Below are positions 18,288-48,984 of a stretch of 64,000 bases of DNA, in pieces. The DNA is taken from the NCBI GenBank assembly GCA_017541105.1, contig JAFXZS010000008.1, positions 179,743 through 243,742 on the forward strand, in the 5' to 3' direction. The stretch is from Clostridia bacterium. GTDB taxonomy: Bacteria > Bacillota > Clostridia > Christensenellales > Aristaeellaceae. Each line of letters starts with the position of its first letter. Positions within the stretch are counted from its first letter, which is position 1. The position numbers and the translations under genes were made by a program. The notes beneath the pieces are model-generated. The model did not search any database. It was not told the DNA's origin and saw nothing but the letters and a program-made list of their open reading frames with translations.

Positions 18288-20630
18288 ATGGCAGACTGGA
18301 TCATGGTCATTGATGATGACACCCCTACCCTGAAGGTTGCAGGGCGGATTCTGAGCAGGGCGGGAATGCGTGTCACTGCTTTCAGTTCCGGTCAGCTGGC
18401 ACTGGAATACATCCGGAAGCATAGTTTTCCGGATATGATTCTGCTGGATCTGAACATGCCGGATATGGACGGCTTTGAAACACTGAAGCTGCTGAAAGCC
18501 GAAATGGCGCCGGGAAAGGAAGTTCCCATCGCGTTTCTGACCGCGGATGAAAGCAGCAACCGGGAGACCCGGGCTCTTGAGGCCGGCGCCATTGACTACA
18601 TCCGGAAGCCCTTCGATCCGGAGGTGCTGATCCAGCGTGTCCGCAAAACCCTGGATATTCGCCACCAGATCGACCGGTTTGCGAAAAACGCGGAAACGGA
18701 TCCCCTTACGGGGCTTCTGAATAAAGCCGCTTCCGAAGCGCTGATGACCCGCCTCTGCGCGCAGGAAAAAGGTCTGCTCTGTATGGTGGATCTGGACGCC
18801 TTCAAATCAATCAACGACATTTTCGGCCACGATATGGGAGACCGGATCCTGATCATGTTTTCCCGGATCATTGAAAAGAATCTTCCCAATCCGAATGACT
18901 GCGGAAGAATCGGCGGGGACGAATTTGTCGCTTTTCTGAGAAACAGAAGCAGGAGTACGGACCTGGCTCATTTTTCGGAAAAGGTCAATGCGGAATATCT
19001 GGCCGGGGTTCACGCCATTCTGGGGGATCGGACGCCTTTTTCGACAGGTGTTTCCATCGGAGCGGTTTCCATCCCGGAACACGGCAGGGATTTCCCGGAT
19101 CTTTTCCATCTTGCGGATCAGGCGCTCTACATCATCAAGCGGAACGGAAAACACGGCGGACGCCTGTACCGCTCTGCAGAACAGATTGATGACAATCAGC
19201 GCAGGGATATGGATCTCGAAACCATTACCGCCATTCTCGAGGAAAGAATTGAAGCGCCGAACGCCATGTGGATGGGCCGGGATGTTTTCGGCAGTATCTA
19301 TAAGTATATGGTCCGCTATATGGACCGGTATCACAGCAGTGCCTTCCGCGTGTTGCTGACACTGAAGGTTCATCCCGGCATCACGGACGCGGACCGTGCG
19401 GAGTGTATCGTCCATTTCCGGCAGACCATCCGGACCTCTCTGCGGAACAGCGATGTGATGATGGAATGCGGGGAAAACCAGCTGTTCCTTCTTCTTCCGG
19501 AAATCCAGAGCCATGATATTGAGCGGGTCATCGGGCGTCTGCTGCATAAATGGAACCATTCGGAGTATCCGGAACGCGCTGAAATCGTTTCTGAATACGG
19601 ACCGGTGCATTCTCCCCGGCCCGAGGATGCCGAAAGATCGCCGGAAGGTCATGAATGGGTCGTCGTGGTGGATGATGATGAAAGCACCCTGCATTATCTG
19701 GAGGGAATCCTGGCCCAGCAGCATCTGAAAGTCACAACGCTCTCCTCCGGTTCCGAACTGCTGAGCCTGACAAAGGAAAACCTGCCGGATCTGATTCTGC
19801 TCGATCTGCTCATGCCGGATCCGGACGGGCTGGAAACGCTTCGCCAGCTGCAGCAGCAGCATCCCGGCATCCTGCTTCCGGTCGTTTTCCTGACAGCCAG
19901 CAGCGATCCGGTATCCGAAGGGCACTGCCTGCAGTACGGTGCCCTGGACCTGATCCACAAACCGATTGTCCCGGAAGTGCTGACGCTTCGCGTCCGGAAT
20001 ATGATCGAACTGGTGCACCTCCGGAAAAGCTTTTCGGAGGCGGTCCTTCGGAAAAACAAAGAAAGCGGCCAGCTGTCGCTGCATCTGGTGCAAACCCTGG
20101 CGGAAGCTGTCGATTCCAGAGATGAATACTCAAGCGGCCATTCCACGCGTGTCGCCGAATACTCCCGGGAAATCGGGCGCCGCATCGGCTATACCTCCCG
20201 GCAGCAGGACGAGCTGTACATCATGGCGCTCCTTCATGATATTGGAAAAATCGGCATCCCGGAAAGAATTATCAACAAGCCCGGGGATCTGTCCGGGGAC
20301 GAATATGCGGAAATCCAATCCCATTCCCGGATCGGGGCCCGGATTCTTCGGAAAATTGAGGAGATCCCGCGGCTGGTCGAAGGTGCCCGCTGGCACCACG
20401 AATGGTATGATGGAAGCGGCTACCCGGACGGCCTGTCCGGAGACAATATTCCGGAATCCGCACGGATTATTGCCGTCGCGGATGCCTTTGATGCCATGTC
20501 CAGTCCGCGAAGCTACCGGGATCGGCTGCCTCGCGAAGACATAAAAAAAGAGATCAAAAAGGGCAAAGGCACCCAATTTGATCCCAGATTCGCGGATATC
20601 ATGCTGGCTATGATGGATGAGGAAGCCTGA
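18288..20630 (+). CDS. REC-GGDEF-(degenerate GGDEF)-REC-HD-GYP c-di-GMP protein
   Basis: 780 residues. Receiver 1 (1-120; IDDD, LLDLNMPDMDG phospho-Asp, K in YIRKPF), GGDEF (about 130-295; GRIGGDEFVAF, DLDAFKSINDIFGHDMGD), a GGDEF-like domain with ruined signature (about 320-450; ECGENQLFLLLPE), receiver 2 (about 465-585; VDDDESTLHYLEG, LLDLLMPDPDG, HKP) and HD-GYP phosphodiesterase (about 610-775; LLHDIGKIGIPE, HHEWYDGSGYPDGL, AVADAFDAM). It could both make and destroy c-di-GMP, switched by two phosphorylation inputs. No histidine kinase is nearby. GGAGGG precedes the ATG, and TATAAT at 18245-18250 is a likely -10. Confidence 0.93.
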   Translation: MADWIMVIDDDTPTLKVAGRILSRAGMRVTAFSSGQLALEYIRKHSFPDMILLDLNMPDMDGFETLKLLKAEMAPGKEVPIAFLTADESSNRETRALEAGAIDYIRKPFDPEVLIQRVRKTLDIRHQIDRFAKNAETDPLTGLLNKAASEALMTRLCAQEKGLLCMVDLDAFKSINDIFGHDMGDRILIMFSRIIEKNLPNPNDCGRIGGDEFVAFLRNRSRSTDLAHFSEKVNAEYLAGVHAILGDRTPFSTGVSIGAVSIPEHGRDFPDLFHLADQALYIIKRNGKHGGRLYRSAEQIDDNQRRDMDLETITAILEERIEAPNAMWMGRDVFGSIYKYMVRYMDRYHSSAFRVLLTLKVHPGITDADRAECIVHFRQTIRTSLRNSDVMMECGENQLFLLLPEIQSHDIERVIGRLLHKWNHSEYPERAEIVSEYGPVHSPRPEDAERSPEGHEWVVVVDDDESTLHYLEGILAQQHLKVTTLSSGSELLSLTKENLPDLILLDLLMPDPDGLETLRQLQQQHPGILLPVVFLTASSDPVSEGHCLQYGALDLIHKPIVPEVLTLRVRNMIELVHLRKSFSEAVLRKNKESGQLSLHLVQTLAEAVDSRDEYSSGHSTRVAEYSREIGRRIGYTSRQQDELYIMALLHDIGKIGIPERIINKPGDLSGDEYAEIQSHSRIGARILRKIEEIPRLVEGARWHHEWYDGSGYPDGLSGDNIPESARIIAVADAFDAMSSPRSYRDRLPREDIKKEIKKGKGTQFDPRFADIMLAMMDEEA

Positions 20631-20648: not shown

Positions 20649-21350
20649 TCAGTCCAGGCCGTCCTGCGTTTTGCTGATGAGGGTATATGTTTCCCCTTCC
20701 GTGCACAGGGCCGTCAGCCGGCCGCCCTTACCGCATCCGGTATCGATGCACAGCACGCCGGTTGCCGGCAGGCGGTAAACCTTCCCGTCCTCCGGTTCCT
20801 CGGTGGTTTCACCGTCACCGGCAAACCAGGTCGCCTTATCCAGGGCGATATGGCCTGTGATCGTCAGCTTTCCGGAAAACAGGTTTTCCGTCACGCTATG
20901 ATGGTCATGCACCAGGGTTGTCAGATCATTTACCTCCGGCGGATCTACCCGAATCCCCGCGTGCACGCATTGAAAACGCTCTTCTTTCCAGAAATACCTC
21001 ACATGCTTCCGCAGCCAGGGAATCATATCCTCCATCTTCTCGCCCGCACTGCGAAAGGAACGCACCGTTGCCGCGCGGCCGACCCGTTCCCACATGATGC
21101 GCTGCATCCATGTCAGCTTCTCCTGAAGCAGGTAATCTTCATGGTTTCCCCGAAGCAGAATAAACCGTTCCCCGAAGTCGGCTGCCAGCTGCTGCACCGT
21201 CTGAAAAACATCCCTGGATTCCGGGCCCCTGTCAAACAGATCTCCCAGCAGCACCAGCCGGTCCCGGCCTGCATCGGCGCCCGCTTTCTCCAGCAAAGCC
21301 CGCAGTGCGCCGTTACAGCCATGAATATCCCCGATAATGATCGTTCTCAC
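20649..21350 (-). CDS. PPP-family metallophosphatase
   Basis: 233 residues with all PPP metal motifs: GDIHGC, GDLFDRGP, LRGNHEDY, then His ligands in CVHAG and ITGHIA. The size and layout match bacterial PrpA/PrpE-type protein phosphatases or diadenosine tetraphosphatases; sequence alone does not decide between them. It lies 41 bases after the nucleotidyltransferase stop on the same strand and is probably the last gene of the long peptide/sugar operon. It could reverse phosphorylation made by the HPr-kinase-like protein of that operon, but this is speculation. Confidence 0.88.
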   Translation of the reverse strand: MRTIIIGDIHGCNGALRALLEKAGADAGRDRLVLLGDLFDRGPESRDVFQTVQQLAADFGERFILLRGNHEDYLLQEKLTWMQRIMWERVGRAATVRSFRSAGEKMEDMIPWLRKHVRYFWKEERFQCVHAGIRVDPPEVNDLTTLVHDHHSVTENLFSGKLTITGHIALDKATWFAGDGETTEEPEDGKVYRLPATGVLCIDTGCGKGGRLTALCTEGETYTLISKTQDGLD

Positions 21351-21391
21351 TGGCTTCCGGTATCCTTTTTATCTTTCTTCTGCCTCACCGG

Positions 21392-22114
21392 TCATCTGTC
21401 CGGACCGGCATAACTGTCCCTGACTCTTTCATAGCTTTCCAGATTGCCGATGTCATACCGTTTCCCCGGCATCACCATGGAATGCATGGGGCTCCTCCGG
21501 CACATCCAGGCAACCAGGCTGCCCGGCGCATCCGTGCCGCATCCGTCCGCAATCGCATTGCGGATTTGTTTTACATCCGAAGCAATGTAGTAATAGAACG
21601 GCGGTGTGCACCAGTGAGAACGGGGAGCCGCGGGTTTTTCCTCAAAACCTGTCAGCCGGTCGCCTTCCACCTCGGCCACACCGGCCCGGCGGAGTTTAAC
21701 GTCATCATCCTCCCAGTAGCGCATCGTACAGCTGGTTTTCTTCTCCCGGGCATAGTCAATGAAGGAACAGAGGCTGAAATCCAGGACATTGTCCCCGGCA
21801 ATCACCAGAAGATCATCGTCCAGTCCAAGCCGGTCGATCGCGAACTGAATATCACACACCGCGCCGAGACGTGTTTCATTTGTACTGGTTCCGTCGTCAA
21901 CGACCGTGATGTTTCGGCCTTCTGCCCATTTTGTAAAATGATCGGCAAACTTATGATTGCTGATCACCGCAAACGCTTCCGCCCGGTCTCCGATATCGTC
22001 CACCATCCAGTCCAGGATGGTTTTTTTGCCGACCCGCAGCAGCGGTTTCGGAAAATTCTCCGTCAGCGGATACATTCGTGTCGCATATCCGGCCGCCAGA
22101 ATGACACACTTCAT
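21392..22114 (-). CDS. Sugar-1-phosphate nucleotidyltransferase
   Basis: 240 residues from ATG 22114, which overlaps the upstream stop as ATGA. The N-terminal signature AAGYATRMYPLTENFPKPLL is the nucleotide-binding loop of NTP transferases, and GDNVLDFS holds the metal-binding Asp. These enzymes join a sugar 1-phosphate to NTP. Translational coupling to a galacturonokinase-like gene suggests it makes UDP-galacturonate or a related UDP-uronic acid from the kinase product. Substrate assignment is inference from the neighbours. Confidence 0.88.
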   Translation of the reverse strand: MKCVILAAGYATRMYPLTENFPKPLLRVGKKTILDWMVDDIGDRAEAFAVISNHKFADHFTKWAEGRNITVVDDGTSTNETRLGAVCDIQFAIDRLGLDDDLLVIAGDNVLDFSLCSFIDYAREKKTSCTMRYWEDDDVKLRRAGVAEVEGDRLTGFEEKPAAPRSHWCTPPFYYYIASDVKQIRNAIADGCGTDAPGSLVAWMCRRSPMHSMVMPGKRYDIGNLESYERVRDSYAGPDR

Positions 22115-23292
22115 AGAGTGACCCCCAGTCCGTCCGCGCTCCGGCAAATGTGAAAGGAGTATCTCCCTTTCATTTCCGGGAATGCGTCGAGATATTTCTT
22201 TTCCACGGTTTCCGCCACGGTCTCTGCCCGGTCAGGGTCAATCAGCGCCATGCAGCATCCCTTGAATCCCGCGCCGGAAAAACGCCCGCCGTAAATTCCG
22301 TCTGTTTCCCGCATAATCTCATAGAGTTTGATTTGCTCCGGCGCGCCGGATTCCCAGTTATGAATACTGCTCCATCCGGATTCAAAGCTCAGCCGGCCGT
22401 ATGCTTCCAAGTCGCCTCTTCGCCAGGCTTCCGCGCCGGCCTCAACCCGCTGATACTCCGTATACCAGTGTTCACAGCGCAGCTGCCATTGTTTCGGAAG
22501 CCGGTCCTTATATGCCTGATAGACGCTGAAAGATACATCCCTGGCATTCGCCTCGCTGAACTTGCCGTACTCCGCTCCGCTGAATGCCTGAAGCGCATAG
22601 ACACCCGCCCGCAGTTCATCCACGCGCATATTGTATTTGCTTCCGGCCAGGGAATGCTCAAGCCCGGAAAAGAAAATGGCGATCTGATATGCCTTCATGT
22701 CCGGATGTGTCGGAATCAGTTCATAACGGTTATCCCTGCAGTCCAGATACAGCAGATGGTCTTTCCGGCTCAGCACCTCACAGCTCTGGTCCAGTGTTCC
22801 GACATTCACACCGACATAATTCTTTTCCGCGTCAAAGGCGATGGCAATCAGTTCTGACATTGTCAGACGGATTCCGTTGATCTTTGCCAGGGCATCCAGA
22901 AACGCCAGAATCACCGCCGCGGACGAGGACAGTCCGCCGATGGGCAGGCTGCCTTCGATCACCCCGCACATTCCCATTGTCAGCGCATGCTCCTTGGCAA
23001 GCGCCCATGTCGCGCCGCGCAGATAATCCGCCCAGTCACCGGTTCTTGGGGGAATCTCCCGGATATGCCACTGGGCTCTCTTGGGGAACTGGAGGCTGGT
23101 CATCTCAATCACGCCGTTTTTTTTGCAGCTGAAGGCAATATGGATTCCCTTGTCAATGGCCAGTCCGGTGATTTTTCCCAGGTTGTGATCGCTGTGTGCG
23201 CCGATGGGACAGATCCGATACGGAGAAAAAGCCAGGCCTTCCGCGTCCCGGCTGTAAATCTCATAAAATTTTTTCTCGCAATGCATCGCCAT
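22111..23292 (-). CDS. GHMP kinase, galacturonokinase-like
   Basis: 393 residues of the galactokinase/GHMP family. Motif 1 reads PYRICPIGAHSDHNLG instead of the GEHTDYNGG-like sequence of galactokinases; from memory this is close to plant galacturonokinase (PYRICPLGAH.DH). Motif 2 is GGLSSSAAV (ATP loop) and motif 3 GGRFSGAGFKGC. It would phosphorylate C1 of galacturonate or another hexose. It lies 9 bases after the UDP-glucuronate 4-epimerase stop and overlaps the nucleotidyltransferase start by 4 bases, so the trio looks like a salvage-plus-interconversion set for UDP-galacturonate. Confidence 0.85.
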   Translation of the reverse strand: MAMHCEKKFYEIYSRDAEGLAFSPYRICPIGAHSDHNLGKITGLAIDKGIHIAFSCKKNGVIEMTSLQFPKRAQWHIREIPPRTGDWADYLRGATWALAKEHALTMGMCGVIEGSLPIGGLSSSAAVILAFLDALAKINGIRLTMSELIAIAFDAEKNYVGVNVGTLDQSCEVLSRKDHLLYLDCRDNRYELIPTHPDMKAYQIAIFFSGLEHSLAGSKYNMRVDELRAGVYALQAFSGAEYGKFSEANARDVSFSVYQAYKDRLPKQWQLRCEHWYTEYQRVEAGAEAWRRGDLEAYGRLSFESGWSSIHNWESGAPEQIKLYEIMRETDGIYGGRFSGAGFKGCCMALIDPDRAETVAETVEKKYLDAFPEMKGRYSFHICRSADGLGVTL

Positions 23293-23301
23293 GTGCAGCC
23301 C

Positions 23302-24372
23302 TCATTTTCTGTAGTATGCGGCATACCATTCCGCAAAGGCACGCAGGCCTTCCCGGATTCCGATCTTCGGGGTAAACCCGTAATCCCTTTCCAGCGCTTC
23401 GGAATCCGCGTATGTCACCGGAACATCTCCCGGCTGCATTCCCACAAGTTCACGATGGCCCTCAAAATCGTAATTTTCCGGCAGGACTCCGGCCCGGACC
23501 AGCTCCTCCTGCAGCACCGCAATATATTCCAGCAGGTTTTCCGGCGTTCCTCCGCCGATGTTATACACCGCATACGGCGGGATCGGAAGGCCGTCCGCCC
23601 CGGCAGCTTTTTCCGGCGCGCCTGCCATGACCCGGAAAATGCCCTCTACGATATCGTCGATATATGTGAAGTCCCGTTTCATCCTGCCGTAGTTGAAAAT
23701 CCGGATGTTTTTCCCGGCTGCCAGGCGCTCGGTCGCAGAATAATAAAACATATCCGGCCGCCCGGCAGGACCGTATACCGTAAAGAAACGCAGGCCCGTG
23801 GAGGGAATGTTATAGAGCTTGGAATAGCTGTGCGCCAGCAGCTCGTTGGATTTCTTGGTGGCCGCGTACAGGGAGACCGGATGGTCCACCGGATCCTCCG
23901 TGGAAAACGGTACCTTTTTGTTTCCGCCGTAGACGGAGGAAGAGCTTGCATACACCAAGTGCTCCACCGGATGATGCCGGCAGGCTTCCAGAATGTTGTA
24001 AAAGCCGATGAGATTGCTCTCGATATACACATCCGGATGATCGATGGAATAGCGCACTCCCGCCTGTGCCGCCAGGTTGACCGCCACATCAAAATGATAC
24101 TGATCAAAAAGCCCGTTCACCAGTTCCCGGTCTGCGATGTTTCCTTTCACAAACACATGCGCAGCCGGGCTGCTTTTCGCGGCTTCCTCAATCTGTGCCA
24201 GCCGGTATTCTTTGAGTCCCGGGTCATAATAATCATTCAGGTTGTCCAGGCTGACCACCGTGCCGGCAGAAAGCTCCCTCAGCAGCCGCAGGACCAGGTT
24301 TGCCCCGATAAACCCGGGAGAGCCGGTTACCAGAATGGTTTTTCCGTTCAGTTCAACGGCGGTTTTCTTCAT
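23302..24372 (-). CDS. UDP-glucuronate 4-epimerase-like SDR enzyme
   Basis: 356 residues, extended short-chain dehydrogenase fold. NAD site VTGSPGFIGANLV; the NLNDYYDPGLKEYRL stretch typical of UDP-glucuronate 4-epimerases; catalytic SSSVYG Ser and YAATK Tyr/Lys. It would convert UDP-glucuronate to UDP-galacturonate. The likely supplier of UDP-glucuronate is the dehydrogenase at 29395-30861. The ATG is 3 bases past the stop of the kinase-like/PqqD fusion, placing sugar metabolism in the same transcript as the peptide-modifying genes. Confidence 0.9.
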   Translation of the reverse strand: MKKTAVELNGKTILVTGSPGFIGANLVLRLLRELSAGTVVSLDNLNDYYDPGLKEYRLAQIEEAAKSSPAAHVFVKGNIADRELVNGLFDQYHFDVAVNLAAQAGVRYSIDHPDVYIESNLIGFYNILEACRHHPVEHLVYASSSSVYGGNKKVPFSTEDPVDHPVSLYAATKKSNELLAHSYSKLYNIPSTGLRFFTVYGPAGRPDMFYYSATERLAAGKNIRIFNYGRMKRDFTYIDDIVEGIFRVMAGAPEKAAGADGLPIPPYAVYNIGGGTPENLLEYIAVLQEELVRAGVLPENYDFEGHRELVGMQPGDVPVTYADSEALERDYGFTPKIGIREGLRAFAEWYAAYYRK

Positions 24373-24375
24373 CGG

Positions 24376-24645
24376 TCATTCTTCCTCAATCACGCCGTAA
24401 CCCTTCAGTTTCTCAAGCAGCGCGTCCAGATCCGCCGCCGCCACGGCCTTCTCCACTTCGAACTCGTCCAGGATCGCCTTCAGCAGATCGTCCCTGGACA
24501 CGGGGTTCTGCAGCTTTTCCCATACCAGCGCAGAAACCTCGTTCAGCAGCACCGTGCCGTTAAACTTGCCGATATTATCTCCTGTCGGCATCAGGATGTA
24601 TTCATCCACTACGTTTCTGAGAACAAATCCGGCCTTTGCTTTCAT
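24376..24645 (-). other. Internal translation start for a stand-alone PqqD-like domain
   Basis: ATG 24645 with AAGGAGG at 24654-24660 sits in frame at the domain junction. It would give an 89-residue PqqD-like protein. The site reads as KEE in the fusion, as if an old stop between two genes had been lost. Confidence 0.5.
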
Positions 24646-25467
24646 GTCTGTTTCCTCCTTAAGATGTTTATGTTGTTGAAGGGCGTCATACAGCGCCTGG
24701 GCATCCCTGTCAGAAGGCCCGCTGAACGCACGGACCAGGTTGCCCCCGGCAGCCAGGCGGGCAATGTTTGCCATCTGGATCGCCGCGGTCTCCGTATCCC
24801 ACATCGGCATAAAGCTTTGCCGCATCAGCAGCTTTCGGCGCTGTCCGAAAGTCATTGCCCGGACATAGCATGACTCCGACCGGCGTACCTCGCAGATTGC
24901 CTTCAGCGGATAATGCACATTCCGGAAGCACTTTTCCTTGCCGTCCCACGGCACCCCGTACAGTTCCAGATTTCGCACATCGATCAGCGGCCGGTCCCCG
25001 TTAACCAGTTGCGCTCCCAGCGCTTTCCCCCAGGCGAAGGCCCGGGTGGATTTCCCGATCCCGGAAGGCCCGGAAAAGAGAAAGGCCTCCCCCTCCACTT
25101 CAACCGCTGCGGAATGCAGGGAAATATATCCCCAACGGGCAAACCAGCATTCCAGAGCGATGCGGATCAGCCACTCCGCCTCGCCGAAAAGCTCATTCCC
25201 TGCCGCTCCGTAGAACCGCAGATGCTTGTAATCCGCACTGACATACAGCCCCTGCTCGTCCGTTCTCCTCGTGGTGAAAAACCAGCCATCCGAAAGCTTG
25301 CGATGCGTAATACTGCCGGAAATCTGCTTCCCGCCGTCCGGGGGAATTTCATCGGTTTTCTCAAGCGTTACATCAGCCCCCGCCGGTTCACAGGCAAAAG
25401 CGGCAAAAGAACACAGGATAAAACTGGATTTCAATGTCAGTTCCGCGATTCTGTAATAATTGTACAT
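24376..25467 (-). CDS. HPr-kinase-like protein fused to a PqqD-type peptide-binding domain
   Basis: 363 residues. The N-terminal 270 resemble the HprK-like ATPases seen in peptide clusters: P-loop FSGPSGIGKSTRAF, then NGDRPLIDV and a WDGKEKC segment. Residues 275-363 are a PqqD-like domain (FVLRNVVDEYILMPTG, LNEVSALVWEKL, VSRDDLLKAILDEF), the RRE fold that grips leader peptides. Inside the coding frame a canonical AAGGAGG (24654-24660) lies 8 bases before ATG 24645, so the PqqD part may also be made alone. The start at 25467 follows CAGGAGG and overlaps the ABC transporter by 31 bases. Phosphorylation of a peptide residue is suggested by lasso-peptide relatives, not shown here. Confidence 0.85.
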   Translation of the reverse strand: MYNYYRIAELTLKSSFILCSFAAFACEPAGADVTLEKTDEIPPDGGKQISGSITHRKLSDGWFFTTRRTDEQGLYVSADYKHLRFYGAAGNELFGEAEWLIRIALECWFARWGYISLHSAAVEVEGEAFLFSGPSGIGKSTRAFAWGKALGAQLVNGDRPLIDVRNLELYGVPWDGKEKCFRNVHYPLKAICEVRRSESCYVRAMTFGQRRKLLMRQSFMPMWDTETAAIQMANIARLAAGGNLVRAFSGPSDRDAQALYDALQQHKHLKEETDMKAKAGFVLRNVVDEYILMPTGDNIGKFNGTVLLNEVSALVWEKLQNPVSRDDLLKAILDEFEVEKAVAAADLDALLEKLKGYGVIEEE

Positions 25468-27170
25468 GGTTCCTCCTGTTCCGTCAAGAACGCAGTTTTA
25501 CGTGCCATTTTCCCCTCGGTCAGATGCAGCCTGTAATCACAGATAGCTAGCGCGGCCCTGCGATGGGTCACAATCAGGCAGGTCTTGTCCCGCATGGCGG
25601 ATATGTTTTGCAGCATCCGGGCTTCTGTCTCTTCGTCCAGCGCGCTGGTAGACTCATCCAGCAGCAGAATCGGCGCGTGCGTCAGCAGCGCGCGGGCTAC
25701 GGCGACGCGCTGCGCCTGTCCCTCTGAAATGCCTACCCCGCGTTCCCCGAGTTCCGCGTCCAGCCCGATCTCCCCCGCCAGATCCTCCAGGCAGGCAGCC
25801 CGAAGCGCTTCCTGAATCTGTTCCTCCGTTGCCTCGTCCGTGAACATGGTCAGGTTCTCCCGCAGCGTGCCGGAAAAGAGGGTATTCCCCTGCGGCACAT
25901 AGGCAAACAGGGCCCTCGATTCCCTGCAGGCTTCCGTCTCGGCGGATCCGTTCCGGAAAACCACCTTTCCGGTGTTGGGAGTATAAATCCCGAGCAGCAG
26001 CTGGAACAGGGATGATTTGCCTCCGCCGGAAGCCCCGGTCAGTGCGACAAACTCTCCCTTCTGAATCCTGCAGCTGATATCCCGCAGCACGTCGTCCGTC
26101 CCGTCCTCATACCGGAACGTTACATGATCGATACAGATTTCGTCAAAGTCTTTCAGCGGCTCGCCCAGCGTCTCCGACGGAAGATCCGTCAGCGCCATCA
26201 GCCGCTCTGTGGATGCAATTACTCTGTATAATTCGCCGGCAATACTTACCGCGCTGGCAATCGGTCCCTGGACACGTCCAATGAGCTGAATCATCGCCGC
26301 CAGGGATCCGTAGGTCAGTTCCCCGCGAAAAATCGCCGCGCTTCCCCAAAGCATACAGAACATCCAGGAAAATTCAAACATCAGCCCCATACTGTTATTC
26401 ATCACAGCTGAGAATTTTCCCTGTCGGATCTGTTCCTTTTCCATGGTCTCCTGCCGGCTGTCAATCTGGCGGAACACTCGTTTCTCGGAAATGCTTGCCT
26501 TAATCAGGCGTATGTTCTCCAGCGTTTCCTGAATCGACGCATGCAGTTTGTCCTCTGCCTTCTGCATGCGTGTATACCGCTCCTTCATCGGTTTCCGGAA
26601 CAGGGTCACAATCACGGTGCCGATGCATCCCGCTCCGGCCAGCAGCAGTACAAACCGCCAGTCCAGTGCGATCAGAATGGCGGCGGCACCGATAAAACTG
26701 ACTGCGGTGCTGACGATTCCCGGCAGGATTCCCAATACGCCGCTTTTAATCGCACTGGTATCGGAGAAAACCCGGTTCACCAGTTCACCGCTGTGGTAGC
26801 TTTTCAGGGAAGCATATTCCTTCAGAAGAATATCCCGAACCAGCCCGCCCTGCAGACTGCGCTGCAGCTTCGCGGAAGCGTGGGTCCTCAGCAGGGAAAG
26901 CGTGAAGCGAAGCGCAATATCCACCAGGCCAAGCGCCACCATCAACAGCCCGAAATGCCACAATGCATCCGTTCTGGAAGAGACCGCCGCATCGATCAGT
27001 CCCTTGGTCACCAGCGTCATACCCAGGGAACACAAGACCATCACCGTATTAAGTACACAGATCAGAAGAACCCTTCCATGGACACATCTGGACCATTTGA
27101 TGACCTGTGCCATCGCGGGGCTCCTGAAGAGTTTCTTGAATTTCTGGAAATCTTCTGAATTGATCCTCAC
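25437..27170 (-). CDS. ABC transporter, fused permease and ATPase
   Basis: 577 residues from GTG 27170, which overlaps the peptidase stop as GTGA; an upstream GTG at 27218 would add 16 residues. The N-terminal half has about six membrane helices (LICVLNTVMVLCSLGMTLV, GIVSTAVSFIGAAAILIAL). The ATPase has Walker A TGASGGGKSS, signature ISEGQAQRVAVARAL, Walker B ILLLDESTSALDE and H-loop THRR. There is no C39 peptidase domain, so leader removal would be done by another protein, probably the S26-like peptidase upstream. Likely role: export of the modified peptide. Confidence 0.9.
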   Translation of the reverse strand: MRINSEDFQKFKKLFRSPAMAQVIKWSRCVHGRVLLICVLNTVMVLCSLGMTLVTKGLIDAAVSSRTDALWHFGLLMVALGLVDIALRFTLSLLRTHASAKLQRSLQGGLVRDILLKEYASLKSYHSGELVNRVFSDTSAIKSGVLGILPGIVSTAVSFIGAAAILIALDWRFVLLLAGAGCIGTVIVTLFRKPMKERYTRMQKAEDKLHASIQETLENIRLIKASISEKRVFRQIDSRQETMEKEQIRQGKFSAVMNNSMGLMFEFSWMFCMLWGSAAIFRGELTYGSLAAMIQLIGRVQGPIASAVSIAGELYRVIASTERLMALTDLPSETLGEPLKDFDEICIDHVTFRYEDGTDDVLRDISCRIQKGEFVALTGASGGGKSSLFQLLLGIYTPNTGKVVFRNGSAETEACRESRALFAYVPQGNTLFSGTLRENLTMFTDEATEEQIQEALRAACLEDLAGEIGLDAELGERGVGISEGQAQRVAVARALLTHAPILLLDESTSALDEETEARMLQNISAMRDKTCLIVTHRRAALAICDYRLHLTEGKMARKTAFLTEQEEPCTIITESRN

Positions 27171-27640
27171 CCGGCACCTCGCACTTTCAGTTTTTTGATT
27201 CTTCGCACGATCCCGCACTTATACCTGTTCAGCAGACGATGTATGTTTCTTTCCTGGTGCCAGATCTTTGCCCAAAACATTCCCTTCTTCGGATCCGGAT
27301 GAATCTTCTTTCTGCCGCGTTCAATCAGCACCACTTTCCCCCAGATGGCGTCGGGAGGAAACCATCCGTCCGGCTTATCGCAATTATCCCCCCAGGTCAT
27401 GATCATTCCGTCCTTTATTTCCCATACCCGATGAACCACATATCGATCCGTGTTCGGTGCGCAGAACAGGACGATATCACCGACAACCGGAAATTCCTTC
27501 AGCTGTGCCAGCGTCACATAATCCCGGTTCCATCGGATCAGGGGCTGCATGCTTGCCCCATTCAGCAAAATACGTACCGGCGGTGCTTTCCCTGCAGCGG
27601 CCAGCATGTGCCATTCCACAATGGACAGCGTTTTGTTCAA
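27167..27640 (-). CDS. S24/S26-type peptidase, candidate leader peptidase
   Basis: About 157 residues from TTG 27640, which has GGGGGAG 8-9 bases upstream; ATG 27658 is an alternative without a ribosome site. The Ser motif LNGASMQPLI and the second motif DRYVVHRVWEI fit S26 peptidases using Ser and His, the SipW/eukaryotic style, rather than Ser and Lys. WGDNCDKPDGW...WGKV matches the GD box. No membrane segment is visible, unlike normal signal peptidases, so it may cut peptides inside the cell or at the exporter. It follows a terminator-like hairpin after the precursor gene and overlaps the ABC gene. Confidence 0.78.
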   Translation of the reverse strand: MNKTLSIVEWHMLAAAGKAPPVRILLNGASMQPLIRWNRDYVTLAQLKEFPVVGDIVLFCAPNTDRYVVHRVWEIKDGMIMTWGDNCDKPDGWFPPDAIWGKVVLIERGRKKIHPDPKKGMFWAKIWHQERNIHRLLNRYKCGIVRRIKKLKVRGAG

Positions 27641-27674
27641 TCCGCATCTCTCCCCCATCACCAGCATTATACAC

Positions 27675-27703
27675 AAAAAAGGCATCCCGATAAAGAGATG
27701 CCT
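27675..27703 (-). terminator. Terminator/attenuator after the precursor gene
   Basis: On the minus strand AGGCATC, a 10-base loop and GATGCCT are followed by a run of T (27675-27680). Placed between the precursor and the rest of the operon, it would raise precursor mRNA over that of the enzymes, a common RiPP arrangement. The stem is only 7 bp, so read-through is likely. Confidence 0.7.
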
Positions 27704-27776
27704 GAATAAAATTACACTTTCCCAAAAGAATTATTTGGCTGATCCGGAAAAGCCGGTGGGTCAGCATGCCACGCTT

Positions 27777-28013
27777 TCAGCAGGTAACTCCCCAGCCCGC
27801 TGCCCAATAAGATGATGTTCCTCCGTTATTCTGGCCCCCGTTATTCTGACCCCCGTTATTCTGGCCTCCATTATTCTGGCCGCCACCGGTGCACGTACAA
27901 TATGGACCGGGAATATAACTCAAGATTTGTTCCCCGGGAGAGCAGGCTTCGACGGATTCGGTGTAATCGAATTCCATTTTTTCAGCGGTGGGAGTGTTGT
28001 ACTTTCTCTTCAT
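27777..28013 (-). CDS. Candidate RiPP precursor peptide with NNGGQ repeats
   Basis: 78 residues from ATG 28013, 9 bases after GGAGG. The N-terminal leader (MKRKYNTPTAEKMEFDYTES, then VEACS) has the KY..P..E...F pattern common in Clostridia peptide precursors. The core has Cys at 24, 39, 41 and 78, a PGPYCTCT segment, four GGQNN repeats (residues 44-65) and a tail rich in aromatic residues (SSYWAAGWGVTC). It sits between a radical SAM/SPASM enzyme and a PqqD/peptidase/exporter block. No known RiPP class is recognised; the modified residues are unknown. A terminator directly follows. Confidence 0.8.
   Translation of the reverse strand: MKRKYNTPTAEKMEFDYTESVEACSPGEQILSYIPGPYCTCTGGGQNNGGQNNGGQNNGGQNNGGTSSYWAAGWGVTC
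27822..27881 (-). repeat. 15-bp tandem repeat in the precursor core
   Basis: Four units of 15 bp encode GGQNN each time, with synonymous differences (AAT/AAC, GGA/GGC/GGG/GGT). Silent divergence with fixed amino acids points to selection on the peptide sequence. Confidence 0.88.
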
Positions 28014-28032
28014 TTTCAAAATCCTCCATCTC

Positions 28033-28061
28033 ATAATATTATTTGATTCCTTGGTGTGCAA
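28033..28061 (-). promoter_or_regulatory. Possible promoter of the precursor gene
   Basis: Minus strand TTGCAC (28056-28061), 17-base spacer and TATTAT (28033-28038). The leader would be only about 13 bases, leaving the ribosome site at the very 5' end, so this is tentative. Confidence 0.3.
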
Positions 28062-28134
28062 TAACTCTGTATTTCTGTCTTCCCCGATTGTACGGACAAG
28101 AAGGCATTCGGATGAATAAGATCCATCTCAGGTC

Positions 28135-29280
28135 TCACTCGCACTCCGGAATAGGCCTGACTCCATGACAGACAAACTGTTTTGTCTGTTCACACAAGGC
28201 AACCGGGAGCTTCCCGGGTTCAGCGAACCGCATTTGGTTTCCGGCACAATTGTTGCAAACCTGATAATACACGCAGCCCTCGCATTCCGGAACCCTGGGC
28301 CAGCTGTTGGCTGCATGATTCACCTTGGCCCATGCGGACTGAATCCCTTCCTGCAGCGGATAAGCCCGGATCATTTCCATGCGGTTGCATGGCATCATGG
28401 TTCCTTGCCAATCAATCACAAATCCGGACCGCCCTCCGCCGCAGCGAAGCCCGCACTCCTTGCATTCGTGATTAGGCCCGCCGGCAGGCGGGAGCAGTGA
28501 TTCGTCAATCTCCTTCGTTTCCGTCCCGTCCAGTTCGTTGATCAGCCGGTAAAGCCGGATATACAGATCCGTTTCCGAATCTGCATCCTGTTCAGACCGG
28601 CCTGTTTCCTTACGCGGAGAAAACAGTGCGGAGTTCACCGTGACAACCCTGGAGATTTTTTTTGCTGCCCGTACCGTTTCCAGCACATCCTCGCCGAGAA
28701 AAATGCTTGGCGTCACATTGAGAAAGACCGGAAGCCCGGCATCAATCGCTTTCCTGATGTTTTCGGTGACGACACCGAAAGCCCGCTGCCCGGTCACTCG
28801 CTCGTAAACATCGTCGTTCCATCCGTACAGTGTGACCTGAATCCTGGCCGGCTTGTGCTCTTTGAAAAACTGAATTCTCCGATCATCCAGCAAAAAACCG
28901 TTCGTCAGGACAGCAACCTCGCACCCAAGGCTGTGCAGATAAAGGAAAAGTTCATCAAAATCCGGATAAACCAGGCATTCTCCGCCGGTCAGCGTCGCCT
29001 GAATCATTCCGGCCTGCCAGGATTGATAAATCAGCTCTTTCCAGGCCCCCACCGAAAGAACAGACCGGTCGTTCAACTGTTCCGGGGTCAGATGAACATA
29101 ACACATCCTGCAGCTGAAATTGCACAGCGGGGTCAGCTCAAACTGGTTGCTCAGCGGAATTCCCTTTTCCCGGGCCTTCAAGCCCAGATAACGGGAGATG
29201 CCGCTGAAATACTGAATCTGCTTTCCGTTCTTTTCACGGAGCATTTCCAGCAGTTCAAACGCATTGGCCGGTTCCTTCAT
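28135..29280 (-). CDS. Radical SAM/SPASM peptide-modifying enzyme
   Basis: 381 residues. The radical SAM cluster motif CNFSCRMC (about residues 53-60) is followed by TGGECLVYPDF and a standard partial barrel. The C-terminal SPASM region is Cys-rich (CKECGLRCGGG, MMPCNRM, CEGCVYYQVCNNCAG), enough for two auxiliary Fe-S clusters. SPASM enzymes near PqqD domains make thioether, C-C or other radical links in peptides. There is no fused RRE, so the PqqD domain at 24376-24645 could supply leader binding. It is the first gene of the operon, with a near-consensus promoter, and its stop lies 121 bases before the precursor. Confidence 0.92.
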   Translation of the reverse strand: MKEPANAFELLEMLREKNGKQIQYFSGISRYLGLKAREKGIPLSNQFELTPLCNFSCRMCYVHLTPEQLNDRSVLSVGAWKELIYQSWQAGMIQATLTGGECLVYPDFDELFLYLHSLGCEVAVLTNGFLLDDRRIQFFKEHKPARIQVTLYGWNDDVYERVTGQRAFGVVTENIRKAIDAGLPVFLNVTPSIFLGEDVLETVRAAKKISRVVTVNSALFSPRKETGRSEQDADSETDLYIRLYRLINELDGTETKEIDESLLPPAGGPNHECKECGLRCGGGRSGFVIDWQGTMMPCNRMEMIRAYPLQEGIQSAWAKVNHAANSWPRVPECEGCVYYQVCNNCAGNQMRFAEPGKLPVALCEQTKQFVCHGVRPIPECE

Positions 29281-29315
29281 CTGCCTGTTCCTTTCCCCGT
29301 GTTCCGGACAAAGAC

Positions 29316-29344
29316 ATTATATGCGACCATTGACAGAATGTAAA
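29316..29344 (-). promoter_or_regulatory. Promoter of the radical SAM gene and peptide operon
   Basis: Minus strand TTTACA (29339-29344), 17-base spacer and TATAAT (29316-29321), about 36 bases before the ATG at 29280. It overlaps the divergent dehydrogenase promoter. Confidence 0.8.
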
Positions 29345-29358
29345 GGATGATTTATGCT
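29330..29358 (+). promoter_or_regulatory. Promoter of the HTH-UDP-glucose dehydrogenase gene
   Basis: TTGACA (29330-29335), 17-base spacer and TATGCT (29353-29358). Each promoter has its -35 box inside the spacer of the other, so polymerase can occupy only one at a time. Confidence 0.8.
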
Positions 29359-29364
29359 AATCAT
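29347..29364. promoter_or_regulatory. Inverted repeat around the -10 box, candidate XRE operator
   Basis: ATGATT (29347-29352) and AATCAT (29359-29364) flank the -10 hexamer TATGCT exactly. A tandem TTGTAAT/TTGTAAC follows at 29366-29379. An XRE protein is encoded directly downstream, so autoregulation is a reasonable inference. Confidence 0.55.
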
Positions 29365-29394
29365 GTTGTAATTTGTAACATTCGGAGGTTCTGC

Positions 29395-30861
29395 ATGAAA
29401 AATTTTTCCATCTCCAAACTGGCTGAAATGATTCTGACCCATCGGAAGCTCCTGAATCTTACTCAGCAGGAGCTTGCGGACAAGGCAGGCATCAACCGTT
29501 CCATGCTCTGCCGGCTTGAAAACCAGGATTATGTCCCCTCTATGGATCAGCTTACCCGTCTGGCCAATACCCTGCAGTTTGATGTGGCTGATGTGTTCAT
29601 TGAGTATAACCCACCCGTGTTCCATCACGTTGTTCCCAGAAATATTACGGTCTTCGGTGCCGGTTATGTCGGCCTTTCGATTGCCACCCTGCTGGCCCGC
29701 CACCATCGGGTCACCCTGGTGGATATTCTGCCGGAAAAAGTCGAAAAAATCAATCAAAGAATCAGCCCAATTCAGGATGAATACATTGAAAAGCATTTCT
29801 CCCGGGCGAATCTGAATCTGACCGCCACACTGGACGGAGAAGCAGCCTGCCGGGAAGCGGAGTTCGTGGTCATCGCCGCGCCCACCAACTATGATCCAAA
29901 GAAAAACTACTTTGACACGTCCGCTGTCGAGTCTGTCATCGAAACGGTTCTGAAAAGCAATCCGGATACTGTAATGGTAATCAAGAGTACGGTTCCGGTA
30001 GGTTATACCGCCTCCGTGCGGGAAAAATACGGCACGAAGAACATCCTCTTTTCCCCGGAGTTCCTCCGGGAATCAAAAGCGCTGTACGACAATCTGTACC
30101 CCAGCCGAATCATCGTGGGCTGCGATGAAAGCACCCGGGACCGGGCTGAGGTTTTCGCCGGACTTCTGCGAAACAGCGCCATGAAAAAAGATGTGGAGGT
30201 TTTGCTCATGGGGCTGACGGAGGCCGAAGCCGTAAAGCTCTTTGCCAACACCTATCTTGCACTTCGCGTTTCCTATTTCAACGAACTGGACACATACGCG
30301 GAAACCAAAGGGCTGAACACCCGGGACATCATCCAGGGGGTATGCCTGGATCCCCGGATCGGCACACATTACAATAACCCGTCCTTTGGTTACGGCGGAT
30401 ATTGCCTTCCAAAGGACACAAAGCAGCTGCTGGCCAATTTTGATCAGGTTCCTCAGAATATGATGACCGCGATTGTGGAAAGCAACCGAACCCGGAAAGA
30501 CTATATCGCAGACCGGGTACTGGAGCTGGCCGGCGCTTATGAAGCAAATGACTCCTGGGATGAAGCGAAGGAGAAAAAGGTCGTCATCGGTGTATTCCGC
30601 CTGACCATGAAGAGCAACTCCGACAACTTCCGCCATAGTTCCATCCAGGGCATCATGAAACGTATTAAGGCCAAAGGCGCTACGGTCATTGTCTATGAAC
30701 CCACGCTGGAAGATGGAGCAACTTTTTTCGGCAGTAAAATCGTCAATGACCTGAAAAAATTCAAAAAGCAAAGCGACGCCATTATCGCCAACCGCTTTGA
30801 CCCCTGCCTGAATGATGTGGAAAGCAAAGTTTATACCCGGGACATATTCCGCAGAGATTAA
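29395..30861 (+). CDS. UDP-glucose 6-dehydrogenase with N-terminal XRE DNA-binding domain
   Basis: 488 residues from ATG 29395 (CGGAGG upstream). Residues about 1-70 are an XRE helix-turn-helix ([40 protein letters not shown]). The rest is a full nucleotide-sugar dehydrogenase: NAD site [16 protein letters not shown], middle domain with [22 protein letters not shown], catalytic Cys in [11 protein letters not shown], and a UDP-binding end ([17 protein letters not shown]). It should oxidise UDP-glucose to UDP-glucuronate. The domain pairing suggests an enzyme that also binds DNA, perhaps at the inverted repeat in its own promoter, and reports UDP-sugar or NAD state. Confidence 0.92.
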
Positions 30862-30897: not shown

Positions 30898-32418
30898 TTA
30901 TTGCTTCCGCGGTTTCTTCTTTTTATTGATACGGTATTTTTTCAACACCTTTCCTGTTCCATAGCCTATAAATCCTCCAAGGCTGTTGCTGATCACGTCA
31001 TCCATATCACACCAACCCAAACCTGTAACATATTGGGTTAATTCAATAATCAAAGAAATGATGATCACAATAAGAAGTGCTTTTTTTTGAGGGAACAGCT
31101 GATAAAGAATTGCGCCTAAAGGAATAAACAGCCAAATATTCTTAATAATACTTGATTTGGCCTCATCATTCACAAAAAACTGCCTATATGCGCTGAAAGA
31201 AAAAAAAGCGTTTGTTGAAAGAGGTTTTTCTCTGTACATCAATGTAAAGTAGAGAACAGCAATAAAATAGAAAATAAGAATTATTATATTCAACCGTTTA
31301 TTGATCATAAACGATAGAATGACCACTCCAAGCGCAAACACTATCGCGAAAACAGGTTGCTGATTTAAGAAAGTCTTTATATTGAATTGTTCATATCCAT
31401 TGGCATCAAGATAAACAACTTTACCATTTGTTGTTTTTGTTCCGTATTGCCCTTCAGGCAATTTGAAGGGGTTACCGTCAATGTCCAAATATCTTTCTAT
31501 ATAACTGCTTCCCTGATAGTCCTTTAATACTGTTGTAAATCCTTTTGTTGTGATGATTGGATTTCCTTCTGCATCCAGACATGTTATGACAGTATTGTCA
31601 CCATTTTCATTATACTCCCTATGTATGCCATATTGTCCCAAGGAGAGCGCCACAGGTTCGCCCTGCGCGTCATAATAAAATTCGTACTCAATCTTTCCGT
31701 TCTCAGCACCTTTGGACAAATAAAAAGTACGTAATATCGAAGCATATCCATTTTTAACAACCATAGGATTTCCTGATTGATCAAGATAGGTAACCTTAAA
31801 AACTCTCCCTTCCGGGTTATACTCATATTGCTTTCCATATCCTTCAGCAGCCGAGCAGACAGGATTTCTGTTTGCATCAAGAAATAGTATTGTCTCTTTT
31901 TGCCCGGAATCATTAAACAGGTTCTTCTCTATTGAGTACCCTGAGGGAAGCATTACAGGTTCTCCATCATCTCCGAGGAATATATTAAAAGTATTATACC
32001 CTTCATCATCGTATTCGTGATATACAGAATAATAGCCCGAGACACATTTAACAGGATTTCCTTCCGAATCATAGTACGCTTCAGTCTTCCCACCATGAGT
32101 TTTTGTAATAATTTTCGTGGCGTATCCAAGATCATATGCTACAGTAATATTGCCATGTTCATCCAGATAATCTGTTCTTTCGACATTTCCTGCAACTACA
32201 GTTTTTTCCGCCAGCATGGAAGAACGATACTCCGAAGCCGCTTGTTTAGGAGAATAATCAATAATTATAAAAGACAAAATCAGGAAAAAAACAAGTAATA
32301 ATACAGAACAGATTCCGCGAATAACAGAATAATCCTTTTCTGATTTATTTTGCAATTTCAATCTTTCATCCTCACCAATGTCCCGGAAAAAGTCAGCTGT
32401 TCCATCTTGACTTTGCAT
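30898..32418 (-). CDS. Membrane protein: 32-residue-type repeats joined to a VanZ domain
   Basis: 506 residues. An N-terminal membrane anchor (about 35-55, ICSVLLLVFFLILSFIII) leads to about eight extracellular repeats (YYDSEGNPVKCVSGY, YLDQSGNPMVVKNGY, CLDAEGNPIITTKGF) of the same type as the giant protein at 55363-61224. The C-terminal 140 residues have four membrane helices with a VanZ signature (LFIPLGAILYQLFP, ELTQYVTGLGWCDMDDVISN). VanZ domains are tied to teicoplanin resistance and lipid/wall effects, without a settled mechanism. It closes the capsule locus and converges on the dehydrogenase gene. A fusion of these modules is unfamiliar to me. Confidence 0.85.
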   Translation of the reverse strand: MQSQDGTADFFRDIGEDERLKLQNKSEKDYSVIRGICSVLLLVFFLILSFIIIDYSPKQAASEYRSSMLAEKTVVAGNVERTDYLDEHGNITVAYDLGYATKIITKTHGGKTEAYYDSEGNPVKCVSGYYSVYHEYDDEGYNTFNIFLGDDGEPVMLPSGYSIEKNLFNDSGQKETILFLDANRNPVCSAAEGYGKQYEYNPEGRVFKVTYLDQSGNPMVVKNGYASILRTFYLSKGAENGKIEYEFYYDAQGEPVALSLGQYGIHREYNENGDNTVITCLDAEGNPIITTKGFTTVLKDYQGSSYIERYLDIDGNPFKLPEGQYGTKTTNGKVVYLDANGYEQFNIKTFLNQQPVFAIVFALGVVILSFMINKRLNIIILIFYFIAVLYFTLMYREKPLSTNAFFSFSAYRQFFVNDEAKSSIIKNIWLFIPLGAILYQLFPQKKALLIVIIISLIIELTQYVTGLGWCDMDDVISNSLGGFIGYGTGKVLKKYRINKKKKPRKQ

Positions 32419-32482: not shown

Positions 32483-33619
32483 TCATTGCTTTTGATCAAG
32501 ATCTTTGATCACAACGCCAAGTTCTTCAAGCATTTTTTTATGCCTCTTAATTGAGCAGTAATGCTTTGCCATAAACGGTATATCTTTAATGAATTGCGTT
32601 CCTTTCCACAACCAGGCAAAAGCTCTTAGGCCTGGTATTTTTACGTTTTTCCATTCCTCTTTTCCCTTTTGCTGCAGTTCTTTGAGTGCAGTATTTGGGT
32701 GTCTGATTTTTATAAATCTGTAGAAAGACTTCTTCTCTTCCGTTGTTTTCTTCCTTCCAAAGTTTCCGCTGGTCAGAACATGTCTCATCAGTTGGGAGCA
32801 AAGGCTTTCATCGGAATGTTTACGCCATGGATGTGCCGGCATTCCAAGATACATCTCACACATTCTGGTTGTGGCAGTAGCCAGGGTTTCCAGGCCGACC
32901 CGAGTAGCCAGCTCCATGAATTGTGTCCAGGCCGTCTCATCTGTCAGACATTTGTCAGCAAACAGCATCCAGTCTATGACATGCCTTAAGCCAAGTCCGC
33001 TTTCCAGATGCTGATTAATGTGTTCAATCAGAATAAGTCCGTTCATTAGATCCGGAAGAACATGAGAGTTGCCTATTTGTTCGAAAATCAGTGAATCGAA
33101 CATTTTTGCTTTTTCCGGATCATTCATGATTGCGAAAGAATAATGAACCTCCACAAGAATACCGTTTTTGGTGAATGTTCTGTGACGGCCTTCCTGTATA
33201 TCAGAAAGACTTGTACTTTCCCGATACCCATTCAGCAGAAGGGATTCGCATGCAGCCTCTGTATCCTCTGGCTTTGTAAGAATATCAATATCACCCAATG
33301 TCCGTAATTCTGGATTTGGATAGTACTGAGCTGCAGACGTCCCTTTTAGCACAACATAAGGCACTGAAATAGGAAGCACCGACTCCGCATATCGACAGGT
33401 TACATTATATGAAATCTGTTTCAGAATCTCAGTCTTCCACTGATCATGAAGTTCTTTGGGCATCTCAACGGATGCGAGCAGTTGTGCTGGAAGAGCCAGA
33501 ATCGAATGGTGCCGCATTTCATCAAAATCTTCCCAGGTCACTTTTTCAATAGAGGTTCCCCATATTGAACCCCGAACCAGCGGAAGCGGTATGGTGTTAT
33601 GGCTGATGATGTTCATCAT
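32483..33619 (-). CDS. Uncharacterised nucleotidyltransferase-family protein (NTP_transf_5 type)
   Basis: 378 residues. The polymerase-beta-like core reads VPYVVLKGTSAAQYYPNPELRTLGDIDIL, with the GDIDIL acidic pair expected to bind metal, then an HHxH-poor helical C-terminus (LILIEHINQHLESGLGLRHVIDWMLF). Such proteins turn up near HprK-like kinases, PqqD proteins and S26 peptidases in peptide clusters, and the rest of such a set lies only a few kb away (24376-29280). Here it is placed at the end of the capsule locus instead. Target unknown. ATG 33619 follows GGGGAG. Confidence 0.8.
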   Translation of the reverse strand: MMNIISHNTIPLPLVRGSIWGTSIEKVTWEDFDEMRHHSILALPAQLLASVEMPKELHDQWKTEILKQISYNVTCRYAESVLPISVPYVVLKGTSAAQYYPNPELRTLGDIDILTKPEDTEAACESLLLNGYRESTSLSDIQEGRHRTFTKNGILVEVHYSFAIMNDPEKAKMFDSLIFEQIGNSHVLPDLMNGLILIEHINQHLESGLGLRHVIDWMLFADKCLTDETAWTQFMELATRVGLETLATATTRMCEMYLGMPAHPWRKHSDESLCSQLMRHVLTSGNFGRKKTTEEKKSFYRFIKIRHPNTALKELQQKGKEEWKNVKIPGLRAFAWLWKGTQFIKDIPFMAKHYCSIKRHKKMLEELGVVIKDLDQKQ

Positions 33620-48929: not shown

Positions 48930-48984
48930 ACGCAGCCTCCTGATCCTCTGATCTGACCTGAGAATATAAATTTCCTGCCCTGTC

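Follow-up and report, generated by a model that had tools for sequence, protein, structure and literature searches.

A radical SAM peptide cassette beside an exopolysaccharide locus and divergent from an HTH-UDP-glucose 6-dehydrogenase gene in a Clostridia bacterium

Gene content of the locus

The window analyzed here, 64,000 nucleotides from a Clostridia bacterium (assembly GCA_017541105.1, below G000; contig JAFXZS010000008.1, positions 179,743 to 243,742), carries at 20649-29280 a run of nine minus-strand open reading frames (ORFs) that we describe as a system for a ribosomally synthesized and post-translationally modified peptide (RiPP). An ORF check and family scans returned the coordinates, order and families that an initial annotation, made from the sequence alone, had given. 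In reading order, the run encodes a radical SAM/SPASM peptide maturase, a precursor peptide, an S26 peptidase, an ABC exporter, an HprK-PqqD fusion, three nucleotide-sugar enzymes (the trio) and a PPP-family phosphatase. The genome is 62% complete, which bounds every statement of absence or single copy made for it below.

The maturase (28135-29280; Radical_SAM 2.9e-22) has three plus six Cys residues that are invariant in 16 relatives, and it reached the cut-off of none of the 25 listed NCBIfam radical SAM models. The precursor gene (27777-28013) encodes 78 amino acids with a YxxP leader and a core containing (QNNGG)x4. The following gene (27167-27640) encodes a soluble SEC11-like S26 peptidase, likely the leader peptidase, which matched TIGR02228 at 5.7e-10 (below cut-off), SEC11C in the Protein Data Bank (PDB) at 8.1e-4, and no Pfam family. 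Its triad (S30, H70 and D85) aligns with SEC11C and is invariant in 21 sequences, comprising the window protein and 20 of 27 extracted relatives; no hydrophobic segment was apparent in these by eye, no membrane predictor having been run. Signal peptidases recognize small residues at positions -3 and -1, and the V-x-A boundary of the leader therefore agrees with cleavage by an S26 enzyme.

The exporter gene (25437-27218) encodes fused membrane and ATPase domains, with no peptidase domain among its family-scan matches. It is followed by an HprK-like kinase domain fused to a PqqD leader-binding domain (24376-25467; PqqD 6e-14). The P-loop domain ahead of PqqD matched TIGR04352 (3.5e-4) and TIGR00679 (0.0046), both far below cut-off, and among PDB sequences the fusion reached an HPr kinase at E 0.83 only. 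S135, G136, G138, K139 and S140 in the P-loop and D158, a conserved acidic residue, are invariant in 26 sequences. The S26 and HprK proteins are both matched weakly by models, and their assignments rest on these catalytic residues conserved in relatives. A plasmid search gave three partial HprK matches at 32-35% identity.

The PPP-family metallophosphatase (20649-21350; Metallophos) had been placed with the sugar genes by the initial annotation, and its neighborhood elsewhere moves it to the peptide genes. In six other loci (L055, L086, L108, and those of G064, G035 and G008), its neighbor is the ABC exporter or an HprK gene, with no intervening trio, so that the kinase and the phosphatase appear as a pair belonging to the peptide cassette. 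Two capsule loci, L127 in G035 and L131 in G008, lack this radical SAM family yet hold relatives of the ABC exporter, PPP phosphatase and HprK genes; perhaps a different peptide system occupies a comparable site there.

The genes had been described as separated by overlaps or gaps of a few bases. This holds from the S26 gene through the phosphatase gene, where spacing ranges from a 52-nt overlap to a 41-nt gap, and fails on both sides of the precursor, which is separated from its neighbors by 121 nt upstream and 136 nt downstream (assuming an ATG start at 28013 for the precursor and a TTG start at 27640 for S26). The 136-nt gap contains a predicted terminator-like hairpin (27680-27703, minus strand) immediately followed by TATAAT at 27671-27666, and the hairpin together with TGTATAAT is present in four of four orthologous loci viewed by eye (the window, G064, G011 and G004). 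Because of this arrangement, the nine genes probably form two transcription units. A second predicted terminator-like hairpin follows the phosphatase gene (20561-20574, minus strand). The promoters and terminators of the locus are all predictions from sequence.

The precursor family

A profile built from 16 aligned radical SAM proteins of this kind led to 78 loci in named genomes (best 80 of 298 confirmed stretches). Most are metagenome-assembled genomes of ruminant and other gut Clostridia, three are labelled Bacteroidales or Prevotella and one Coriobacteriia, and many loci sit on short contigs. HprK was found in 50 and PqqD in 60 of the 78, and the two domains are fused in 28 of 32 adjacent pairs.

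Short ORFs beside the radical SAM genes carry a common leader, K-K-x-Y-x-x-P-x-A-E-K-x-x-F-D-Y-x-x-x-V-V-A-S. Regular-expression matching gave 117 hits, reduced to 91 by a filter and to 84 once seven rows were dropped by eye; among these 84, the Tyr is conserved in 83, the Pro in 84 and the Phe in 78, and the position at which a YxxPxL leader would have Leu is occupied by Ala (49) or Val (26). A leader model recovered 95 ORFs in 67 of 83 loci (the 78, the window, three further loci of its own genome and that of G064). This recovery is partly by construction, because the model was built from those precursors, while the control count is independent: the leader, like the radical SAM, HprK, PqqD and S26 genes, occurs in none of 40 regularly spaced 20-kb regions from four genomes of the same genus. 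In 15 chosen genomes of that genus, the precursor model matched four at E<=1e-4.

The cores are variable. Of 88 cores cut by script, a set that still contained a few false rows, 84 contain Cys, with two or more in 75. In the window, the (QNNGG)x4 stretch precedes a terminal YWAAGWGVTC, and similar ends occur in L048 (YYAPGWGQNCS) and L047 (YFAPGYNLNC). An aromatic-x-Cys modification site was tried and set aside as weak (25 occurrences vs 16.9 in shuffles, z 2.2); Gly-Cys is the strongest core pair (52 vs 25.7, z 5.9), for which we claim no modification site. Loci L062, L067, L072 and L073, and L114 at 11117-11416, have precursors whose core hardly varies (GRGRGGGCDGVPYHRNARTFSSGRNSGC and close variants), in contrast with the variable cores elsewhere; these loci have PqqD.

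A gene-encoded precursor with a conserved leader and a variable core, adjacent to a modifying enzyme, is what defines a RiPP system, and sequence comparison confirms such a system at 20649-29280. That it looked undescribed is borne out by the searches made, in which no NCBIfam model matched any of 34 precursors better than E 0.013 and the maturase reached no listed model.

The window genome has four radical SAM genes of this kind and five precursors. Three satellite pairs of radical SAM and precursor genes lie at C4:15672-17050 (L007), C14:171045-172416 (L005) and C14:52529-53861 (L006), and an orphan precursor at C6:120848-120991 (L191). None of the satellites, nor the orphan, has an HprK-PqqD gene of its own, and the genome has a single one at E<=1e-15. 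The window locus has the look of a hub at which processing and export are shared. Precursors distant from the operon occur in G064 too.

A divergent dehydrogenase gene with a DNA-binding domain

Upstream of the maturase gene and facing away from it, beyond the nine genes first annotated, lies a gene (29395-30861, plus strand, start chosen from homologues) in which an N-terminal XRE-like helix-turn-helix domain (HTH_3, 1.6e-9) and UDP-glucose 6-dehydrogenase domains (UDPG_MGDP_dh) are fused in one ORF, below HTH-UGDH. The strongest promoter-like pair of the region lies between two palindromes. TTTACA-17-TATAAT (29316-29344, minus strand, 11/12 match) faces the maturase and precursor genes, and TTGACA-17-TATGCT (29330-29358, plus strand) faces HTH-UGDH. 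Palindrome 1, TGTTCCGGACAAAGACA (29300-29316), covers the start site expected from the -10 box on the maturase side, and palindrome 2, TGTTGTAATTTGTAACA (29364-29380), that expected for the dehydrogenase promoter.

The maturase gene is divergent from HTH-UGDH in five genomes (G000, G064, G011, G004 and G036, in the last of which contig C6 ends just past the maturase start). The promoter-like pair facing the maturase is co-located in all five (TATAAT in four, TAAAAT in G036), and TATAAT is found in none of six HTH-UGDH loci without the maturase. Palindromes of the form TGTT-N10-ACA number 17 in 11 regions upstream of HTH-UGDH genes, compared with a mean of 0.155 and a maximum of two in 2000 mononucleotide shuffles. 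Seven of these regions have two palindromes, three have one (in L177 at a different position) and one has none; paired sites sit near -96 and -32, with a spacing of 63-64 bp. No such palindrome occurs in nine regions upstream of dehydrogenase genes that lack the HTH domain. Across 45 genomes, the perfect palindrome TGTTGCTGNNAGCAACA was located four times (G035, G001, G065 and G023), in each case directly upstream of HTH-UGDH, and its reversed control not once.

In G001, G008, G023 and G035, the divergent neighbor of HTH-UGDH is a response-regulator gene, a homologue of which sits just past the phosphatase gene in G064 and in the window (18288-20630, plus strand; response regulator/GGDEF/HD protein). 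The peptide operon thus stands between two genes that are adjacent to each other elsewhere.

Taken together, gene order indicates that the conserved sugar link of the peptide genes is the divergent HTH-UGDH, and the best reading of the promoter region is that this protein would bind the palindromes and repress both its own gene and the maturase-precursor transcript. A purely regulatory link, offered by the initial annotation as one possibility, is now the best-supported alternative, although it would work through a gene absent from the set then considered. No self-regulating UDP-glucose 6-dehydrogenase with a DNA-binding domain was found among open-licence titles and abstracts.

The nucleotide-sugar trio

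The trio comprises an epimerase-family protein, likely a UDP-glucuronate 4-epimerase (23302-24372), a GHMP sugar kinase (22111-23292; GHMP/GalKase), possibly a galacturonokinase by inferred specificity, and a sugar-1-phosphate nucleotidyltransferase (21392-22147; NTP_transferase), for which an internal ATG at 22114 is the likelier start. The kinase has GAHSDH at the position of the galactokinase GEHTDY motif, a type of change that we take to resemble plant galacturonokinase; literature searches on galacturonokinase yielded no helpful result.

The suggestion that the peptide operon is joined to nucleotide-sugar genes is true of this genome and does not extend to the family. In the 78 homologous loci, orthologues of the epimerase were found in two, and of the kinase and the nucleotidyltransferase in one each: the epimerase at 79-83% identity (L047 and L095), the kinase at 81% and the nucleotidyltransferase at 66% (both L095), with a further kinase-like match in L115 at 24%. 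In G064 and G004, HprK-PqqD leads to the phosphatase without the intervening trio; in G064, the epimerase lies beyond HTH-UGDH and the other two genes 1.6 Mb away. Homologous peptide clusters, many of them on short contigs, are thus mostly without the trio, and on these counts, with the gene order of G064, we reject a conserved peptide-plus-sugar operon as far as the trio is concerned. Judged by synteny, the place of the trio in the operon is specific to this lineage.

The kinase and nucleotidyltransferase genes are paired in G004, G021, G035 and G064, joined by the epimerase in the first three and also by a UDP-glucose 6-dehydrogenase in G004 and G021. This co-travel fits a single UDP-galacturonate module, in which the dehydrogenase and epimerase would act de novo and the kinase and nucleotidyltransferase in salvage. 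At the cut-offs used, G000 has one close copy each of the epimerase, the kinase and the dehydrogenase.

The adjoining exopolysaccharide locus

Beyond HTH-UGDH, and likewise outside the region first annotated, an exopolysaccharide locus extends over 30898-62653 (minus strand), with VanZ, Wzx, Wzy, glycosyltransferase, sugar-phosphate transferase, LCP and Wzc-like genes. It is the likelier user of UDP-uronate. Exopolysaccharide-type genes, counted at E<=1e-8, flank 27 of the 78 family loci within the available DNA. Among loci of at least 15 kb, the count is 18 of 38, against one control region in 40 (Fisher p 2e-6); strict capsule genes flank 9 of these 38 loci and none of the 40 controls (p 9e-4). 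These p-values are overstated, since the loci are related, three come from the genus of the window, and the controls come from only four genomes. In five loci (L096, L097, L098, L100 and L117), Wzc-like genes on one side of the cassette and sugar-phosphate transferase genes on the other share a single strand with it.

Several other features of this region were observed. A phosphoenolpyruvate mutase-cytidylyltransferase fusion beside a thiamine pyrophosphate enzyme like phosphonopyruvate decarboxylase (47808-50994), inside the exopolysaccharide locus, makes a phosphonate decoration likely. EYDxxGN-like repeat units occur at 55363-61224 and 63085-64000, including a repeat protein of 1953 amino acids, and units of this type also stand ahead of the VanZ domain at 30898-32418. 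Two GGDEF proteins are encoded beside the operon, one with a LacI-type sensor (15385-17241) and the other the response regulator with an HD domain (18288-20630), which suggests cyclic di-GMP control of the capsule region.

Comparison with known systems

Self-regulating, or trigger, enzymes such as PutA carry a fused DNA-binding domain. HTH-UGDH likewise combines an enzyme with a DNA-binding domain and has recurrent palindromes at its own promoter, but its enzyme part is a UDP-glucose 6-dehydrogenase. The SynChlorMet and HPr-rel-A cassettes (TIGR04249-51 and TIGR04352) bring radical SAM/SPASM, PqqD and HprK-related proteins together, and the window proteins score far below the cut-offs of their models (ScmC 16.5 of 125 bits, HprK_rel_A 19.8 of 200 bits). 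Sactipeptides (subtilosin), ranthipeptides and tryglysin (WgkB) share with the window a CxxxCxxC radical SAM enzyme with extra Cys residues and an adjacent short precursor containing Cys. The maturase reaches 63.7 of the 850 bits required by the AlbA model, 36.7 of 340 for PapB and 42.3 of 650 for WgkB, and the window differs from these systems by its HprK, S26 and PPP partners.

Other parallels are found among lasso peptides. Paeninodin (PadeK), pseudomycoidin (PsmK/PsmN) and the Bradymonas bsf system share with the window a YxxP leader, PqqD, an HprK-like kinase, a nucleotidyltransferase gene and an ABC exporter. They use a B2 protease and an asparagine-synthetase-like cyclase, whereas the window has a radical SAM/SPASM enzyme and an S26 peptidase, and its kinase is fused to PqqD, unlike theirs. 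In lasso systems, PqqD-type proteins bind YxxP leaders, and in bsf the HprK-like kinase became far more active with its PqqD partner (PMC10368454). Lasso clusters from the rumen that contain HprK, PqqD and a nucleotidyltransferase have already been published, with similar gene sets and exopolysaccharide glycosyltransferase genes reported in Butyrivibrio (PMC7533575). We reject a lasso peptide here: the cyclase (PF00733) is absent from the 62% complete genome, and the model of the transglutaminase-like B2 leader protease (PF13471) gives one below-cut-off match (21 of 26 bits) on another contig. No description of a radical SAM version of such a cassette came up in the searches made of open-licence papers.

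Interpretation

We consider it somewhat more probable than not that a RiPP cassette ends the exopolysaccharide locus under the control of HTH-UGDH, that its peptide is phosphorylated, and that the trio serves the polysaccharide. The PqqD domain would bind the YxxP leader of the precursor and the radical SAM/SPASM enzyme would modify its core, which the fused HprK domain is likely to phosphorylate, by analogy with the lasso kinases. The S26 peptidase would then cut the leader off after V-x-A, the ABC protein would export the peptide, and the PPP phosphatase may reverse or edit the phosphorylation. HTH-UGDH, the presumed maker of UDP-glucuronate, would bind the palindromes at both divergent promoters and, by repressing its own gene and the maturase-precursor transcript, couple their expression to uronate metabolism, while the trio would be a UDP-galacturonate module that entered the operon in this lineage and serves the neighboring polysaccharide.

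Several points weigh against this proposal. All of its evidence comes from sequence, and HprK is weakly recognized. The putative second promoter ahead of S26 would escape the HTH-UGDH switch, and L173, which has no maturase gene, has a strong promoter-like TTGACA-18-CATAAT facing away from HTH-UGDH. The perfect palindrome is absent from all five divergent-maturase genomes (G000, G064, G011, G004 and G036), whose own palindromes are degenerate, and across the whole window the loose pattern does not exceed chance (9 vs 5.88), so that the case for the palindromes in the window rests on position and conservation; moreover, the sites are not independent because the upstream regions are related. Further, 51 of the 78 family loci, many on short contigs, have no exopolysaccharide-type gene in the available flanks, and a general capsule link is also opposed by the three satellite loci of G000, which lack such genes.

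Capsule loci may alternatively collect mobile cassettes, with the peptide operon, HTH-UGDH and the trio being neighbors without a regulatory or chemical link. We regard such plain proximity as unlikely, though it accounts for the other peptide cassettes (ABC, PPP and HprK) that G035 and G008 carry in their capsule loci, for the satellite loci that show no exopolysaccharide genes and for the independent movement of the trio. Against it speak the divergence of the maturase gene from HTH-UGDH with identical promoter geometry in five genomes, and the palindromes at matching places.

The initial annotation proposed decoration of the peptide with uronic acid, for which a candidate transferase on phosphorylated peptide is encoded at 32483-33619 (minus strand). 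This NTP_transf_5 protein (PF14907), 3.2 kb from the maturase gene, is the only match in G000, and it had no PDB relative better than E 0.3. HprK would phosphorylate Ser or Thr and NTP_transf_5 would cap the phosphate with uronic acid or another sugar, drawing on a UDP-uronate pool from HTH-UGDH and the trio. There is precedent in pseudomycoidin, in which the nucleotidyltransferase-like PsmN adds hexose to phospho-Ser (PMC9266682), although that review does not give the PsmN donor as a uronate and leaves undecided whether PsmN is a true nucleotidyltransferase. NTP_transf_5 has a GDxD motif invariant in 11 sequences, lies near 10 of the 78 family loci (8 of 38 long loci vs 0 of 40 controls), and in L087 falls inside the run from maturase to HprK. 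Most family loci nonetheless lack it, the window copy is on the exopolysaccharide side, beyond HTH-UGDH and VanZ, and the trio does not accompany the peptide genes across the family. Uronic-acid decoration via NTP_transf_5 is possible by analogy with PsmN, and we hold glycosylation of the peptide to be improbable. Still less probable is the fullest combination, a capsule-coupled phospho-glyco-RiPP that is modified by the radical SAM enzyme, phosphorylated by the kinase fused to its leader-binding domain, capped with uronate through the phosphate by NTP_transf_5, exported, held by the capsule and timed by a dehydrogenase repressor.

A further alternative is that the HprK-PqqD and PPP pair targets a capsule-machinery protein and the peptide is modified by the radical SAM enzyme only. 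The position of the pair next to capsule genes suggests it, but we find it very doubtful given that kinase and PqqD domain form one protein and that both HprK and PqqD accompany the precursor family, often at loci where no capsule gene is seen.

On the proposal that we favor, the peptide genes end a capsule region beside a possible enzyme-switch, and therefore peptide production is probably tied to the supply of capsule sugar. The cassette combines lasso-type parts (YxxP leader, PqqD, HprK-like kinase and nucleotidyltransferase) with radical SAM chemistry and a SEC11-like leader peptidase, and its family is spread across gut and rumen Clostridia. Here a metabolic enzyme may control a peptide operon as well as its own gene, a possibility that can be tested directly and that would link capsule sugar supply to RiPP production.

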